NCBI RefSeq assembly: GCF_004153455.1
Contig: NZ_SDQE01000010.1
Coordinates: 1-64,000, forward strand
Direction of reading: 5' to 3'
Length of the DNA stretch: 64,000 nt
DNA from: Allopusillimonas ginsengisoli
GTDB taxonomy: Bacteria > Pseudomonadota > Gammaproteobacteria > Burkholderiales > Burkholderiaceae_B
How positions within the stretch are numbered: the first letter of the stretch is position 1; every line of letters begins with the position of its first letter. Both the position numbers and the translations under genes were made by a program. The notes beneath the pieces were generated by a model. It worked only from the letters and a program-made list of their open reading frames with translations, was not told the DNA's origin and ran no database searches. Positions 19,622 to 24,494 of the stretch are shown here, piece after piece.

Positions 19622-19947
19622 ATTTATTCTCCCGCCCCCGGCTCAGGGGCCGGGGAATTATCGCTGTCGCGCCGGAAATCCAGCGTCTGCATCCAGCCCG
19701 GCCAGCACATACGGTAAAAAATACCGGCGGTCGTAAAAGCTATACGAGGCGCTTGCGATGCCAAGGGCGGGACGTGTCCTTCATCCAAGATCGAAGCAAT
19801 ATCCATGCCAGTCGCCGTGCCCATCAAGGCAAACCATGGGGGACGCCGTTGCGCGCAGGCATGAGATTTGCAGGGAATGGGCAACAAGGCACGCGGCAAG
19901 CAGTTGCTATTGCGCGCTTCGTATCAGACCCGGAATGGAGACTCTTT
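19622..19947. other. Intergenic region upstream of glgA and of the proline-rich protein gene
   Basis: A 326-base region between the divergent glgA and small proline-rich genes. A minus-strand open frame of 91 codons (19624-19899) ends two bases before the glgA GTG, and the glgA ribosome site GGAGAA lies inside its last codons. That spacing is operon-like, but the frame has no recognisable domain and no clear start signal, so I do not call it a gene. No sigma-54 type -24/-12 element with correct spacing was found here. Confidence 0.4.
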
Positions 19948-20223
19948 ATGAAAACAATCACACAGACTGCACAGCCGTCCGCCGCCGATATACGGGGCGC
20001 CGCGCAGGGATGGATGTATGCGCATGTACCGGAGCCGCCAGAGCACGACCCGAATGTGCCGCCGGGACATGATCCGAACACGCCGCCGGAGCAACCTCCT
20101 GTCGAGGATCCAGACAGGGATATCGATCTGCCCCCGAGGGAGGCGCCCGAAGAAATTCGAGACCCCATGCCTCGGCCAGACAAGCAACCTCCGCAGCGAG
20201 GCGAGGGGCAATGGCACGCCTAG
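19948..20223 (+). CDS. Small proline-rich acidic protein of unknown function
   Basis: A 91-residue protein with GGAG 7 nt before its ATG. The middle and C-terminal parts are highly biased: PEPPEHDPNVPPGHDPN followed by TPPEQPPVEDPD, with a repeated PP-[EG]-HDPN unit and many Asp/Glu/Pro. It has no signal peptide, membrane segment or cysteine. Composition suggests an intrinsically disordered or extended polypeptide. Similar short Pro/Asp-rich proteins occur in related Alcaligenaceae genomes, to my recollection, without known function. It converges on the NtrC-type regulator gene, the two stops overlapping by four bases, and is divergent from glgA. A longer in-frame opening exists upstream but lacks a ribosome site. 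Confidence 0.6.
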   Translation: MKTITQTAQPSAADIRGAAQGWMYAHVPEPPEHDPNVPPGHDPNTPPEQPPVEDPDRDIDLPPREAPEEIRDPMPRPDKQPPQRGEGQWHA

Positions 20224-21569
20224 CGAAGGTCCTTGCCGGTCGGCGCGCTGTCGTCGCTTTCGCCGTATTCCTCAAGCCGGTTGTAAAGGGTTTTGAGACT
20301 GATGCCCAGCATCTTGGCGGCTGTCTTCTTGACGCCGCCGCATTGTTTGAGCGTGGCCAGGATGATTTGCCTGTTGGCATCGGCAAGGGATGCACCCACA
20401 GGCACCAGGACGTCGCTGTTCAGTTCGGGCGCGTGAGCGTTGAGTTCGAACGACTTGATATCGCCGTCGAGCACGTCATCTCCCAATATATAGCTACGGT
20501 ATACGTAATTGCGCAGCTCGCGGATGTTGCCCGGCCATGCATACTTTTGCATGGCGTCGCGTGCCGACTTGGAAAACGCCTTGCTGCTGCCATGCTCTTC
20601 GTTCAACTTGCCCAGGAAGAAATCAGCCAGAATGAAAATATCGTCGTCACGCTCGCGCAAGGGCGGCAGCTCCAGCGGGAAGACACTGAGTCGATGGTAG
20701 AGATCTTCACGCAGCATGCCATTGGCCACCGCCTGCTCGGGGTTTCGGTTCGTGGCGGCCACAACGCGGACATCCGCCTCGGTTTCCTCGTGGGTGCCCA
20801 CACGCATGAATTTCCCGCTCTCAAGCACGCGCAGCAAACGCACCTGCAAGTCCATGGACATCTCGGTGATTTCGTCGAGGAAGATCGTGCCGCCCCGCGC
20901 ACGTTCAAAATAACCCTTGTGCTGGCGGTCTGCACCCGTGAAACTGCCTTTTTCGTGGCCAAAGAGCTCGCTTTCGATGAGATGAGGCGAAATCGCGCCG
21001 CAATTGATGGGGATGAAAGGATGGTCGCGGCGCGTACTGGCCAAATGAATGGCTTCGGCAGCCAGCTCCTTGCCGGTTCCGCTTTCGCCCACCAGCAGCA
21101 CGGTGGCCTGCGTCGGCGCCACCTTTTCAATATGCGCACAGAGCAGCTGCATGGCGCGCGACTGGCCTATCATTTTGGCAAAACTGTCCGACGAGACAGG
21201 CGGCATGGCCTTGCCTGCCATCAACTTGATTTCGCCAAGAATCCCGCGCAGCCGTCGCAGGCTGACAGGCTTGAGCAGGTAATCGATGGCACCGCAGCGC
21301 AGCGCTTCGATGGCGCTGTCTACGCTGGAGTAACCTGTAATAAATGCAACGTGCGTGTCGGGAAGTTCCAGCTCCCGCCAGAACTCCATGCCATTTCCAT
21401 CCGGCAGATTCATGTCCAGAAAGACAACATCGGGTTTTTGTCGTTCTATCTGTATACGGGCCTGGCGGATGTCGGCGGCCTGTGCCGTTGTGTAACTTTC
21501 GTCCGCTGCGATATCAGCGATCAGCTCTCTGATTGCAGCATCGTCGTCGACGATCAAAAGATGCGGCAT
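20220..21569 (-). CDS. Sigma-54-dependent response regulator (NtrC type)
   Basis: Two-component activator of 449 residues with three domains. The receiver is residues 1-115 (acidic pocket DDD 8-10, phospho-acceptor Asp52 in FLDMN, Thr78, Lys100). The AAA+ sigma-54 interaction domain covers about 132-360, with Walker A GESGTGKE 161-168, sigma-54 loop GSFTGA 208-213 and Walker B IFLDE ending at 233. A Fis-type helix-turn-helix ends the protein (KTAAKMLGISLKTLYNRLEE). It would hydrolyse ATP to open promoters for sigma-54 polymerase when phosphorylated. No histidine kinase gene is adjacent, so its partner lies elsewhere. It is divergent from a second, paralogous activator and close to rpoN. Confidence 0.93.
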   Translation of the reverse strand: MPHLLIVDDDAAIRELIADIAADESYTTAQAADIRQARIQIERQKPDVVFLDMNLPDGNGMEFWRELELPDTHVAFITGYSSVDSAIEALRCGAIDYLLKPVSLRRLRGILGEIKLMAGKAMPPVSSDSFAKMIGQSRAMQLLCAHIEKVAPTQATVLLVGESGTGKELAAEAIHLASTRRDHPFIPINCGAISPHLIESELFGHEKGSFTGADRQHKGYFERARGGTIFLDEITEMSMDLQVRLLRVLESGKFMRVGTHEETEADVRVVAATNRNPEQAVANGMLREDLYHRLSVFPLELPPLRERDDDIFILADFFLGKLNEEHGSSKAFSKSARDAMQKYAWPGNIRELRNYVYRSYILGDDVLDGDIKSFELNAHAPELNSDVLVPVGASLADANRQIILATLKQCGGVKKTAAKMLGISLKTLYNRLEEYGESDDSAPTGKDLR

Positions 21570-21808: not shown

Positions 21809-22759
21809 ATGATCAAATCTTCTAAAATCCTGGGTCGCTCCGGGGCAGCCTTTGACTTGGCGCGCTCTATTGTCAAAGCTGCTCCTACAACTGCCTCGGT
21901 ACTGATTATCGGTGAAAGCGGCACCGGTAAGGAAATCGTCGCGCGCGCAATCCACAATCGCAGCGAACGGAAGAATGCGCCCTTCGTCGCCATCAACTGC
22001 GGCGCCATCACGCCATCGCTGGCCGAAAGCGAGCTCTTCGGTCACGAAAAAGGCAGTTTCACCGGCGCGTCGGCAACCACCATGGGCTGTTTCGAGCGCG
22101 CGCACCCCGGCACGCTCTTTCTGGACGAAGTCACCGAAATGCCGCTGGCGATGCAGGTGCTGTTGTTACGCGTGCTGGAAAGCAGCCGGTACAACCGGGT
22201 AGGCGGCACCGAACAAATCAATGTGGATCTGCGCATCATCGCCGCAACGAACCGCGATCCCAAGGAAGCCGTGATGGCCGGCACATTCAGGTCGGATCTG
22301 CTCTACCGGCTTGCGGTGTTTCCGATTCGCGTCCCCTCGTTGCGCGAACGCAAGTCTGATATCGCCTACCTGGCGCAGCGCTTTCTGGATGAACTCAATC
22401 AACAGGAAAAATCAAGCAAGCGCTTTTCCAAATCGTCGCTGGACAATCTTGAAGGCCACAGCTGGCCTGGCAATATCCGCGAACTCAAGAACATTATCAC
22501 CCGAGCCTTCATCCTGGCGGACAATGAGCTCGATATCCCACCCTTCAGCCCCACGCGCCGCCCCGGCAGCCTTGAAGTGAAGCAAGGCTTCCTGAAGATT
22601 CCGATCGGCACCCCGCTGACCAATGCCCAGCGAGCCATCATCATGGCCACCCTCGAGCATTTCGCGGGCGACAAGCAACGGGCCGCCCTGGCGCTTGGAA
22701 TCAGCCCCAAGACGCTCTATAACCGTCTCGAACGATTCGGGGATAGCCCAGACACCTGA
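21809..22759 (+). CDS. Sigma-54 enhancer-binding protein lacking a sensor domain
   Basis: A 316-residue AAA+ activator that begins directly with the ATPase domain: Walker A GESGTGKE 35-42, sigma-54 loop GSFTGA 82-87, Walker B LFLDE, then a Fis-type helix-turn-helix (QRAALALGISPKTLYNRLER). It has no receiver, GAF or PAS domain, like PspF or HrpR/S, so activity must be set by expression level or a partner protein. The AAA+ and DNA-binding parts clearly resemble those of the divergent NtrC-type regulator (shared ESELFGHEKGSFTGA and KTLYNRLE), so the pair looks like a duplication in which one copy lost its receiver. It is 214 nt upstream of rpoN on the same strand. Confidence 0.9.
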   Translation: MIKSSKILGRSGAAFDLARSIVKAAPTTASVLIIGESGTGKEIVARAIHNRSERKNAPFVAINCGAITPSLAESELFGHEKGSFTGASATTMGCFERAHPGTLFLDEVTEMPLAMQVLLLRVLESSRYNRVGGTEQINVDLRIIAATNRDPKEAVMAGTFRSDLLYRLAVFPIRVPSLRERKSDIAYLAQRFLDELNQQEKSSKRFSKSSLDNLEGHSWPGNIRELKNIITRAFILADNELDIPPFSPTRRPGSLEVKQGFLKIPIGTPLTNAQRAIIMATLEHFAGDKQRAALALGISPKTLYNRLERFGDSPDT

Positions 22760-22812
22760 ACAATCCCCTGACGCCGCCCCAATGGTCCTGACGCCCCTTG
22801 CTGTTTGCACAT

Positions 22813-22830
22813 CTTACACACATCGGTAAG
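22813..22830. promoter_or_regulatory. Inverted repeat upstream of the rpoN sigma-54 promoter, candidate enhancer site
   Basis: CTTAC, eight bases, then GTAAG form a perfect dyad centred about 75 bases upstream of the -24 GG of the promoter below, i.e. about 100 bases before the predicted transcription start. This is the normal distance for an upstream activating sequence bound by an enhancer-binding protein. The two such proteins encoded just upstream are the obvious candidates. Only one copy was seen. Confidence 0.45.
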
Positions 22831-22893
22831 TTTGCCCTTTGATGCGCGCAGGCACGCCATGTGCTTTCCCTGAGCAAACCCCTGAATCCAAAC

Positions 22894-22910
22894 TTGGCAT
22901 GGTTTTTGCT
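22894..22910 (+). promoter_or_regulatory. Sigma-54 (-24/-12) promoter of rpoN
   Basis: TTGGCATGGTTTTTGCT matches the sigma-54 consensus (YTGGCACGRNNNTTGCW) at every defined position except one (T for C in the -24 block). The GG (22896-22897) and GC (22908-22909) doublets have the required 10-base spacing. Transcription would begin near 22921, giving a leader of about 53 nt before the rpoN start. This implies that rpoN is transcribed by sigma-54 polymerase itself. Confidence 0.75.
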
Positions 22911-22973
22911 TGAATCCCTGGTAGAACACCGCTGGAATGCGGTCGCCAGACAAGTAAAAAAAGGGGATTCAAA

Positions 22974-24494
22974 TTGATACAACTCGTCTATGAGCTGCAG
23001 GCCAGGCAACAGACTACCCTGACACCCCGGCTGCAACAATCCGTTCGACTGCTGCAGATGTCCACCCTGGATTTCAAGCGCGAAGTCGCCGAAGCGCTTG
23101 CCAGCAACCCTTTTCTGGAGGATCAGGAAGAAGGAGGCGCCGGGCAGGATAGCGCGTCGGGCGCGGACAATGCGAAACTGGACGTCGAAGGCAGCCACGA
23201 CGCCTATGCCCACGCAGGCGATCTCCATGAGCCCGACCGCGACGCCGCCGCGACCAACGGTATGGGCGACGCGGACAGCTACGACGAGGCACCCGAAATC
23301 CAGCGTATCGCCTCAGCGCCTGTCGAATCGCGGGCCTACTCCGGCGACTATCCCGCCACGCGCCAGAACAGCGAACGCAACACCGATGTGGGGCAATGGG
23401 CGCGGGCCGAAACCAGCCTGCAGGATGCGCTGTACGCAAATCTGTGCGGCTTTTCATTGAGCGAGCGGGACAAATGCCTGGCATTTTTCATCATTGAAGC
23501 GATTGATGACGATGGCTATCTACGCGAACCGTTAACGGAACTGGCCGACCCGGCGCAGTTCTCGCCCGCACCAACGCAGGCGGAATGGGAGGTTGCACTG
23601 CGTCTGGTTCAGCATCTGGGCGCGCCAGGCATCGCCGCGCGTGATTTGTCTGAATGCCTTGCGCTGCAGATCGAAGCCATGCCTGAGGACACGCCTGCGC
23701 GTGCGGTCGCCTTGCGCATCGTCAAAGACCAGCTCGAGCGTCTGGGCCGCTGCGACTACCAGGGCATGGCCAAGGCCACGCTGTGCAGCGTCGAGGACGC
23801 ACGCACCGCAAGCCTGCTGATCCGCACGCTGACGCCGCGTCCGGGGCGCCGCTACGGCGCGGTGGATCCATCCAGCTACGTGATTCCGGATGCCTACGTC
23901 CGCAAGGTGGGCAAACTATGGATCGCCACGGCCAACAACGAGGCCATCCCGCAGGCACAGATCAACGACGCCTATGCGCGCCTGTTTCGCAAGACACGGT
24001 ACGACGAACGCGCCATGATGGCGCAGGCTCTGCAGGAGGCGCGCTGGCTGATTCGCAGCCTGGAACAACGCACTCAGACCATACAGCGGGTAGCCCAGGC
24101 GATTGTTGCGCGTCAGCAGACTTTCTTCGACTATGGCGAGGTGGCGCTTCGTCCATTGATGCTCAGCGAAATCGCCGAGGAATTGGATATGCATGAGTCG
24201 ACCGTCTCCAGGGCCACGAGCAGCAAGTACCTGGCGACGCCTCGGGGCATCTATGAGTTCAAGCATTTTTTCACGCGGGAGCTGGCCACCAAATCTGGCG
24301 GCAGCTGCTCGGCCGGGGCGGTGCGGGCACTCATCCAGGAAATGATCGACGACGAAAACCCCAAGGAGCCCTTGTCCGACGTCACACTTGCGGACAAGTT
24401 GGCGCAGGAAGGGATCATGGTCGCCCGCCGCACGGTGTCGAAGTACCGGGCCCAGATCAAATATCCACCTGCGGAATTGCGCCGCGCGCCATGA
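22974..24494 (+). CDS. rpoN: RNA polymerase sigma-54 factor
   Basis: Alternative sigma factor, 506 residues. Region I is glutamine/leucine-rich (ARQQTTLTPRLQQSVRLLQM, residues 9-28). An acidic region II follows (roughly 50-110, many Asp/Glu), then the core-binding domain, an HTH (AEELDMHESTVSRATSSKY) and, near the C-terminus, the RpoN box ARRTVSKYRA (484-493), which contacts the -24 element. Translation starts at a TTG with AAGGGG 8 nt upstream; no ATG fits. A sigma-54 promoter and a possible enhancer lie upstream. The usual rpoN neighbours (lptB before, hpf and ptsN after) are absent, so this may be a second rpoN copy. Confidence 0.93.
   Translation: MIQLVYELQARQQTTLTPRLQQSVRLLQMSTLDFKREVAEALASNPFLEDQEEGGAGQDSASGADNAKLDVEGSHDAYAHAGDLHEPDRDAAATNGMGDADSYDEAPEIQRIASAPVESRAYSGDYPATRQNSERNTDVGQWARAETSLQDALYANLCGFSLSERDKCLAFFIIEAIDDDGYLREPLTELADPAQFSPAPTQAEWEVALRLVQHLGAPGIAARDLSECLALQIEAMPEDTPARAVALRIVKDQLERLGRCDYQGMAKATLCSVEDARTASLLIRTLTPRPGRRYGAVDPSSYVIPDAYVRKVGKLWIATANNEAIPQAQINDAYARLFRKTRYDERAMMAQALQEARWLIRSLEQRTQTIQRVAQAIVARQQTFFDYGEVALRPLMLSEIAEELDMHESTVSRATSSKYLATPRGIYEFKHFFTRELATKSGGSCSAGAVRALIQEMIDDENPKEPLSDVTLADKLAQEGIMVARRTVSKYRAQIKYPPAELRRAP

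Follow-up and report, generated by a model that had tools for sequence, protein, structure and literature searches.

It is an open question why some bacteria maintain a pair of sigma-54 factors, and one case is offered by a locus of the environmental betaproteobacterium Allopusillimonas ginsengisoli, whose 4.52-Mb genome (33 contigs) carries two rpoN genes. One of them, rpoN2, lies in the DNA analyzed here, positions 1 to 64,000 of contig NZ_SDQE01000010.1 (assembly GCF_004153455.1; hereafter the window), and begins at position 22974 (contig C1); the other, rpoN1, is on contig C2. What switches on a second sigma-54 gene? Shortly before rpoN2 stands a -24/-12 element, the type of promoter used by sigma-54 itself, and next to the gene are two others encoding enhancer-binding proteins (EBPs, the activators of sigma-54). 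The element is very probably the working sigma-54 promoter of rpoN2, as judged by its conservation before this gene in comparison with control regions. A sigma-54 gene placed under sigma-54 control in this way, with a conserved enhancer-like repeat and an EBP pair inherited along with it, gives a concrete and testable answer to the question of why two such factors are kept.

The -24/-12 Element before rpoN2

The element, TGGCATGGTTTTTGCTT, occupies 22895-22911 of the forward strand, with its GG at 22896-22897 and its GC at 22908-22909, exactly 10 bases apart, and it departs from the consensus TGGCACGNNNNTTGCW at a single position, T for C at base 6. A preliminary description of this DNA had reported just such a 17-base, one-mismatch element with this spacing and had placed it ahead of the rpoN start; both points stand, and only its distance of 64 nt needs a trivial correction, 62 nt separating the end of the element from the TTG start codon at 22974. 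Arithmetic from the GC doublet, taken as -13/-12 with the start 12 nt past it, predicts a transcript beginning at about 22921 and a leader of about 53 nt (22921-22973, + strand). The gene that follows (22974-24494, + strand, with AAGGGGA ahead of its start) is identified by its reading frame, by Pfam, by TIGR02395 (438.9 bits) and by its place in a tree, and its product of 506 residues is intact, with the Sigma54_AID, CBD, and DBD domains all present. A sigma-70-like site was looked for at 22600-23100, and none was found.

Taken by itself, the motif is not significant, since matches to the consensus with at most two mismatches number 17 in the window against 19.3 expected. The exact pattern TGGCAYN5TTGC occurs twice when both strands of the window are scanned, and the longer form TGGCAYN5TTGCTT occurs 6 times in the organism's own genome (3 for the backwards pattern) and 29 times over the five genomes of the genus (again 3 for the backwards pattern). 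The case beyond chance for the element comes from its conservation at one place before rpoN2.

Conservation in close relatives, a check that the preliminary description had set for its proposal and that the element passes, was followed in two overlapping collections of loci. In a sample of 121 genomes of the family, 56 have an rpoN2 orthologue, and the upstream regions of 55 were examined, G067 being left out of the counts because its rpoN2 lies at a contig start with no upstream sequence. Of these 55 regions, 51 contain a perfect TGGCAY-N5-TTGC, 2 more have a form with one mismatch, and the remaining 2 lack the element at the usual place. By set, all 41 distinct regions of the first are perfect, as are 5 of 6 in the second (G070 is without) and 5 of 8 in the third, where G099 and G048 have one mismatch at the usual place and G094 has no element there. 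All five genomes of the genus carry it, 73-82 nt ahead of the rpoN2 match start. The second collection consists of named loci: a scan with a single protein gave no relatives, a scan with an N-terminal alignment gave 259, and among the best 80 of these the element is perfect in 76, has one mismatch in 1, and is lacking in 3. Beyond these collections, the rpoN of the Burkholderia third replicon has a one-mismatch element at the same place in 5/5 records fetched (of 6 listed), and a Comamonadaceae plasmid rpoN has no element upstream.

Control regions behave differently. Among 39 regions before rpoN1 (41 loci, with L149 and L176 left out for want of an anchor) none is perfect and all have at least two mismatches; shuffled rpoN2 regions are perfect in 0.02%; and before the neighboring EBP genes of the 80 named loci the count is 1/125. 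When 68 non-redundant loci are aligned on the element, whose own columns are thereby preselected, the flanks hold only about 0.1 bit per column. From this comparison the element is read as an old, conserved sigma-54 promoter.

Two Sigma-54 Factors

In a tree built by a quick method from 66 of 139 proteins, in which a few rows, including Burkholderia, sit on long branches and are of unsure placement, the RpoN1 side is split off by a branch of 0.92 (SH-aLRT 100), and the window protein falls on the RpoN2 side. Fixed differences in region I, counted once L230, L244, and L186 (long branches or doubtful place) are dropped, include two residues: at window residue 19 all 84 RpoN2 proteins have R vs Q in 49 of 52 RpoN1-side proteins, and at residue 34 all 84 have F vs L in 50 of 52. 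The RpoN box reads ARRTV[S/T/A]KYR in 84/84 RpoN2 and ARRTVAKYR in 52/52 RpoN1-side proteins. A regular expression for the sigma-54 helix-turn-helix (HTH) gave no matches in the RpoN proteins, and that criterion was dropped. Because the core of the RpoN box is shared while the region I changes are fixed, promoter reading is probably common to the two factors and the contact of RpoN2 with activators may differ from that of RpoN1.

The Linked Activator Genes

Directly upstream of rpoN2 on the same strand is the gene for EBP2 (21809-22759, +), an activator without a receiver domain and with a Fis-type HTH, and divergent from it is the gene for a response-regulator EBP (20220-21569, -) composed of receiver, AAA+, and HTH domains. 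The two proteins are 53% identical over 312 residues, both have the AAA+ sigma-54 interaction domain and an HTH by Pfam, and in both the sigma-54 contact loop reads GSFTGA, a variant of GAFTGA. Past the EBPs lie glgA, treZ, and treY, and past rpoN2 an asparaginase gene.

This arrangement is widespread. Of the 80 named loci, 60 have EBP matches on both strands in the DNA ahead of rpoN2; among the 73 loci for which 5 kb or more of upstream sequence is present, the number is 58. With presence of the response-regulator EBP defined by an E value of at most 1e-120, its occurrence agrees with that of rpoN2 in 117 of the 121 genomes: 53 have both and 64 have neither, 3 have only rpoN2, and 1 has only the EBP (Fisher p 2e-29, with no correction for relatedness). 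The three genomes with rpoN2 alone are draft assemblies of 130 to 280 contigs. In the Bordetella-type genomes G055 and G082 both genes are kept though about 38 and 40 kb apart. The loop is GSFTGA in 115 of the 127 best EBP matches per strand at the named loci, GAFTGA in 9, and not found in 3. The window genome has GSFTGA in both neighboring EBPs and in one paralogue on C22, with GAFTGA in four other EBPs; the script failed to read the loop of L289 correctly, and this EBP is counted neither way. GSFTGA is not exclusive to these activators, as AcoR of R. solanacearum is also listed with it by Lundgren et al. 2015 (PMC4676750). The preliminary description's proposal of a locally encoded EBP as the activator of rpoN2 appears likely on the combined strength of linkage, co-occurrence, and a conserved inverted repeat upstream.

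The C22 paralogue (L297, G000:C22:462938-464263) is a response-regulator EBP 63% identical to that of the window; a similar one occurs in the congener G003, and neither of the genome's two rpoN genes lies beside L297.

The EBP genes themselves show a separate pattern in part of the group. The 125 control regions comprise 61 before EBP2 and 64 before the response-regulator EBP, and 11 of the latter have a one-mismatch element, 10 of them a conserved TGGAA-type -24/-12 site in Ralstonia-type loci (L226, L248, L250, L254, L256, L257, L258, L260, L263, and L264). Nine of these ten (not L264) also have a TTCTTGC...GTAA repeat there. It is possible, from the sites alone, that the response-regulator EBP activates its own gene in these loci.

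The Upstream Inverted Repeat

In the window, CTTAC-N8-GTAAG lies at 22813-22830 (+), 64 bp upstream of the element, and corresponds to a repeat TTCTTAC-N8/9-GTAAGAA that precedes rpoN2 in relatives, mostly 70-190 bp upstream and in its complete form in five Bordetella loci and Allopusillimonas soli. The spacing is selective: among the 80 upstream regions, 22 have TTAC-N8-GTAA and 19 have TTAC-N9-GTAA, any other spacer length between 4 and 13 is seen in 0-4, and shuffled sequences give the N8 form in 0.24%. When both arms are scored, 52 of the 80 loci reach at least 11 of 14, vs 2.1% of shuffles. Integration host factor (IHF) sites receive no support, the IHF consensus being present in just 2/80 upstream regions.

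A scan for the repeat paired with a promoter element covered about 2.25 Mb of sequence around the loci (40 family, 80 named, and 2 Burkholderia loci, overlapping). The script's test places 62 rows at rpoN2 and leaves 39 others; reversed sequences give none. Of those 39, 23 belong to rpoN2 genes whose N-terminus is variant (one row falling within the gene), and the rest have one-mismatch elements: 9 stand before the gene of the response-regulator EBP in Ralstonia-type loci, 5 (from 3 distinct Bordetella-type loci) before the gene of a glycosyltransferase that diverges from rpoN2, and 2 (one locus) before a small ORF in Yanghanlia. In G082, a palindrome together with the perfect element TGGCACAGCGTTTGC stands before a gene for a BON-domain protein, about 6 kb past the gene for the response-regulator EBP. 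Since a related repeat precedes the EBP gene in Ralstonia and the repeat also precedes a gene near the EBP, it is assigned to the local EBPs, and the inverted repeat is likely to be their binding site.

At the Bordetella-type loci L134, L135, L223, L229, and L266, rpoN2 and the glycosyltransferase gene have divergent -24/-12 elements with a single palindrome between them; one glycosyltransferase of these loci is confirmed by Pfam.

A Probable Circuit and Its Alternatives

The account that seems probable is that rpoN2 stands behind a sigma-54 promoter activated by an EBP at the inverted repeat and started by RpoN1. One of the two neighboring GSFTGA EBPs would bind 22813-22830 and, by looping, reach a closed sigma-54 polymerase at 22895-22911 and open the complex. 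The first sigma-54 would be RpoN1, whose gene is without an element. RpoN2 would then be made only while the EBP is active and would raise the supply of sigma-54 for the EBP's targets; it might also serve its own promoter, which would close a positive loop. As the other rpoN gene lacks the element and R. solanacearum rpoN2 needs rpoN1, the circuit is at least a cascade from RpoN1 to RpoN2, and such a cascade with a local activator is well supported by comparison, self-activation by RpoN2 being a possible extra step.

Several observations weigh against this account. The element is not at its usual place in G070, G094, and the named loci L231, L235, and L237 (two Bordetella ansorpii and B. genomosp. 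13), where about 90-100 nt separate the end of the EBP2 match from rpoN2. The repeat is not recognizable before rpoN2 of Ralstonia, Pigmentiphaga, and Verticiella, despite a kept promoter and mostly kept EBPs, and the window repeat is an imperfect copy, the strict TTCTTAC-N8-GTAA being absent from its genome. In 12 genomes the strict repeat alone gives 22 rows vs 20 for the reversed control, and 14 of the 22 lie before rpoN2; only location is special, and these counts led to rejection of the idea that the repeat by itself marks out a wide regulon. The repeat could be bound by some other protein.

A stronger form of the loop, in which RpoN2 is itself the main sigma-54 at its own promoter and the gene, given an active EBP, becomes a switch that sustains itself or is bistable, is conceivable and rather doubtful. 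The RpoN box is kept in RpoN2, so that the same promoter is plausibly readable, and R. solanacearum RpoN2 is an active factor, able to supply several of the sigma-54 functions that E. coli loses when its rpoN is deleted (PMC4676750). However, loss of rpoN1 completely abolishes expression of R. solanacearum rpoN2 in minimal medium (Ray et al. 2015, PMC4371752), so RpoN2 cannot start its own gene there; the dependence shown is on rpoN1, not on rpoN2. The fixed region I changes (R19, F34) could alter which activators RpoN2 answers. The same competence in E. coli bears on an opposite and unlikely proposal, that RpoN2, once induced, is a competitor that takes up core polymerase and -24/-12 sites and lowers the expression of genes dependent on RpoN1, rpoN2 among them, in negative feedback. 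An antagonistic role for Ralstonia RpoN2 is indeed suggested in the conclusions of PMC4676750, but a transcriptionally competent protein fits this poorly, and its co-occurrence with its EBP suggests a positive partner.

The activator might also be the general nitrogen regulator NtrC in place of the local EBPs, with rpoN2 one more nitrogen-starvation gene. This would be the least probable of the alternatives. The conserved TTCTTAC-N8/9-GTAAGAA is unlike the NtrC site, GCAC-N5-GGTGC; a related repeat precedes the local response-regulator EBP gene in Ralstonia-type loci; and rpoN2 tracks the local EBP across genomes. In favor of NtrC, and likewise to be counted against a local activator, R. solanacearum rpoN2 is listed among its possible targets (PMC4676750 Table 3), and the gene is induced in minimal medium (PMC4371752).

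Extended to the order, the activation of rpoN2 by an EBP with RpoN1 leads to a broader proposal that is put forward tentatively, with somewhat less than even confidence: that Burkholderiales have a dedicated second sigma-54 channel, made up of an RpoN2 group whose activator-contact region has fixed changes, a matched EBP pair in which the loop is mostly GSFTGA, and an enhancer TTCTTAC-N8/9-GTAAGAA of its own. The EBP would first use RpoN1 to make RpoN2, which would then amplify the EBP's small regulon: rpoN2, the EBP gene, and genes for envelope glycans and stress. Such a feed-forward loop, with positive feedback, would have been retained in bacteria from Ralstonia to Bordetella and Achromobacter. 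An rpoN2 acting as conditional amplifier for one EBP channel would be an answer covering a large group, the Alcaligenaceae, Ralstonia, and perhaps Burkholderia, with the repeat as a handle for finding more targets near EBPs.

Other Sigma-54-type Sites in the Window and Genome

A perfect TGGCAYN5TTGCTT, TGGCATGGATATTGCTT, lies at window 19794-19810 (-), 172 nt ahead of the position taken as the start of the glgA ORF, and a weak -24/-12-like site with two mismatches, AGGCATGAGATTTGCA, at 19857-19872 (+) points away from glgA. A sigma-54-driven glycogen/trehalose operon was considered and not kept, as no TGGCAY-N5-[TC]TGC occurs near glgA in three congeners (L099, L101, and L103, those with glgA in the fetched stretch; strict pattern only). 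Elsewhere in the genome, sigma-54-type sites also occur where they would be expected: TGGCAYN5TTGCTT with at most one mismatch precedes, among others, ORFs for a putative glutamine synthetase (L062), PII protein (L064), aldehyde dehydrogenase (L048, with EBP L294 near), and methylisocitrate lyase (L049, with EBP L289 near), names read from the translations without a family search. Perfect copies at G000:C11:910436-910452 and 912456-912472 precede the neighboring genes L046 and L047, whose products are related to each other, look like lipoproteins, and contain Asp-, Pro-, and Asn-rich repeats.

Comparison with Known Systems

The preliminary description held that autogenous control of rpoN is known in only a few bacteria with two copies, such as Rhizobiales, which leaves out Ralstonia, the nearest precedent found. 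In R. solanacearum GMI1000, rpoN2 (RSp1671) is likewise a second rpoN, with a predicted -24/-12 element 63 nt upstream (PMC4371752), and is listed as a potential target of two GSFTGA EBPs with adjacent locus numbers, RSp1667 and RSp1668 (PMC4676750 Table 3). The fetched Ralstonia loci (R. pickettii and others, R. solanacearum itself not among them) have the same gene order and fall on the RpoN2 side of the tree, and the Ralstonia soli element TGGCATAGCCTTTGCA is nearly identical to the published R. solanacearum string. They differ in that the related TTCTTGC...GTAA repeat precedes the response-regulator EBP, whereas in most Alcaligenaceae loci the TTCTTAC repeat precedes rpoN2.

Other second rpoN genes resemble this locus in part. 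In Mesorhizobium loti and Rhizobium etli a second rpoN is also under an EBP-driven sigma-54 promoter, a NifA-type one that RpoN1 can serve in M. loti (PMC3538637); there, however, prxS precedes rpoN2 in an operon activated by NifA, whereas here the promoter lies immediately ahead of rpoN2 and activation is likely to come from a response-regulator EBP and an EBP that has no receiver. In Cereibacter sphaeroides the RpoN3/AprX pair is alike in that an RpoN copy has its own response-regulator EBP and that EBP, target promoter, and rpoN co-occur, but this is an alphaproteobacterium and the promoter known from the available part of PMC11999139 is that of the target gene xrpA rather than of the rpoN copy. 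The rpoN island of the Burkholderia third replicon has an EBP pair of the same build, yet the pair and rpoN are separated (about 20 kb in B. multivorans), one element base is changed, and the rpoN sits on a long branch of unsure placement. The B. multivorans stretch (L181) carries, besides the EBP pair and rpoN, genes for glycosyltransferases, Ku/LigD, and DUF892, BON, and CBS proteins.

A literature search of partial coverage, in which the repeat was not searched as text, found no paper on rpoN2 wiring in Alcaligenaceae. A sigma-54 promoter before rpoN2 is thus of a kind already reported in Ralstonia and, as the sites found here suggest, far more widely spread than PMC4371752 and PMC4676750 describe; what is new is the breadth of this wiring and the likely activator site.
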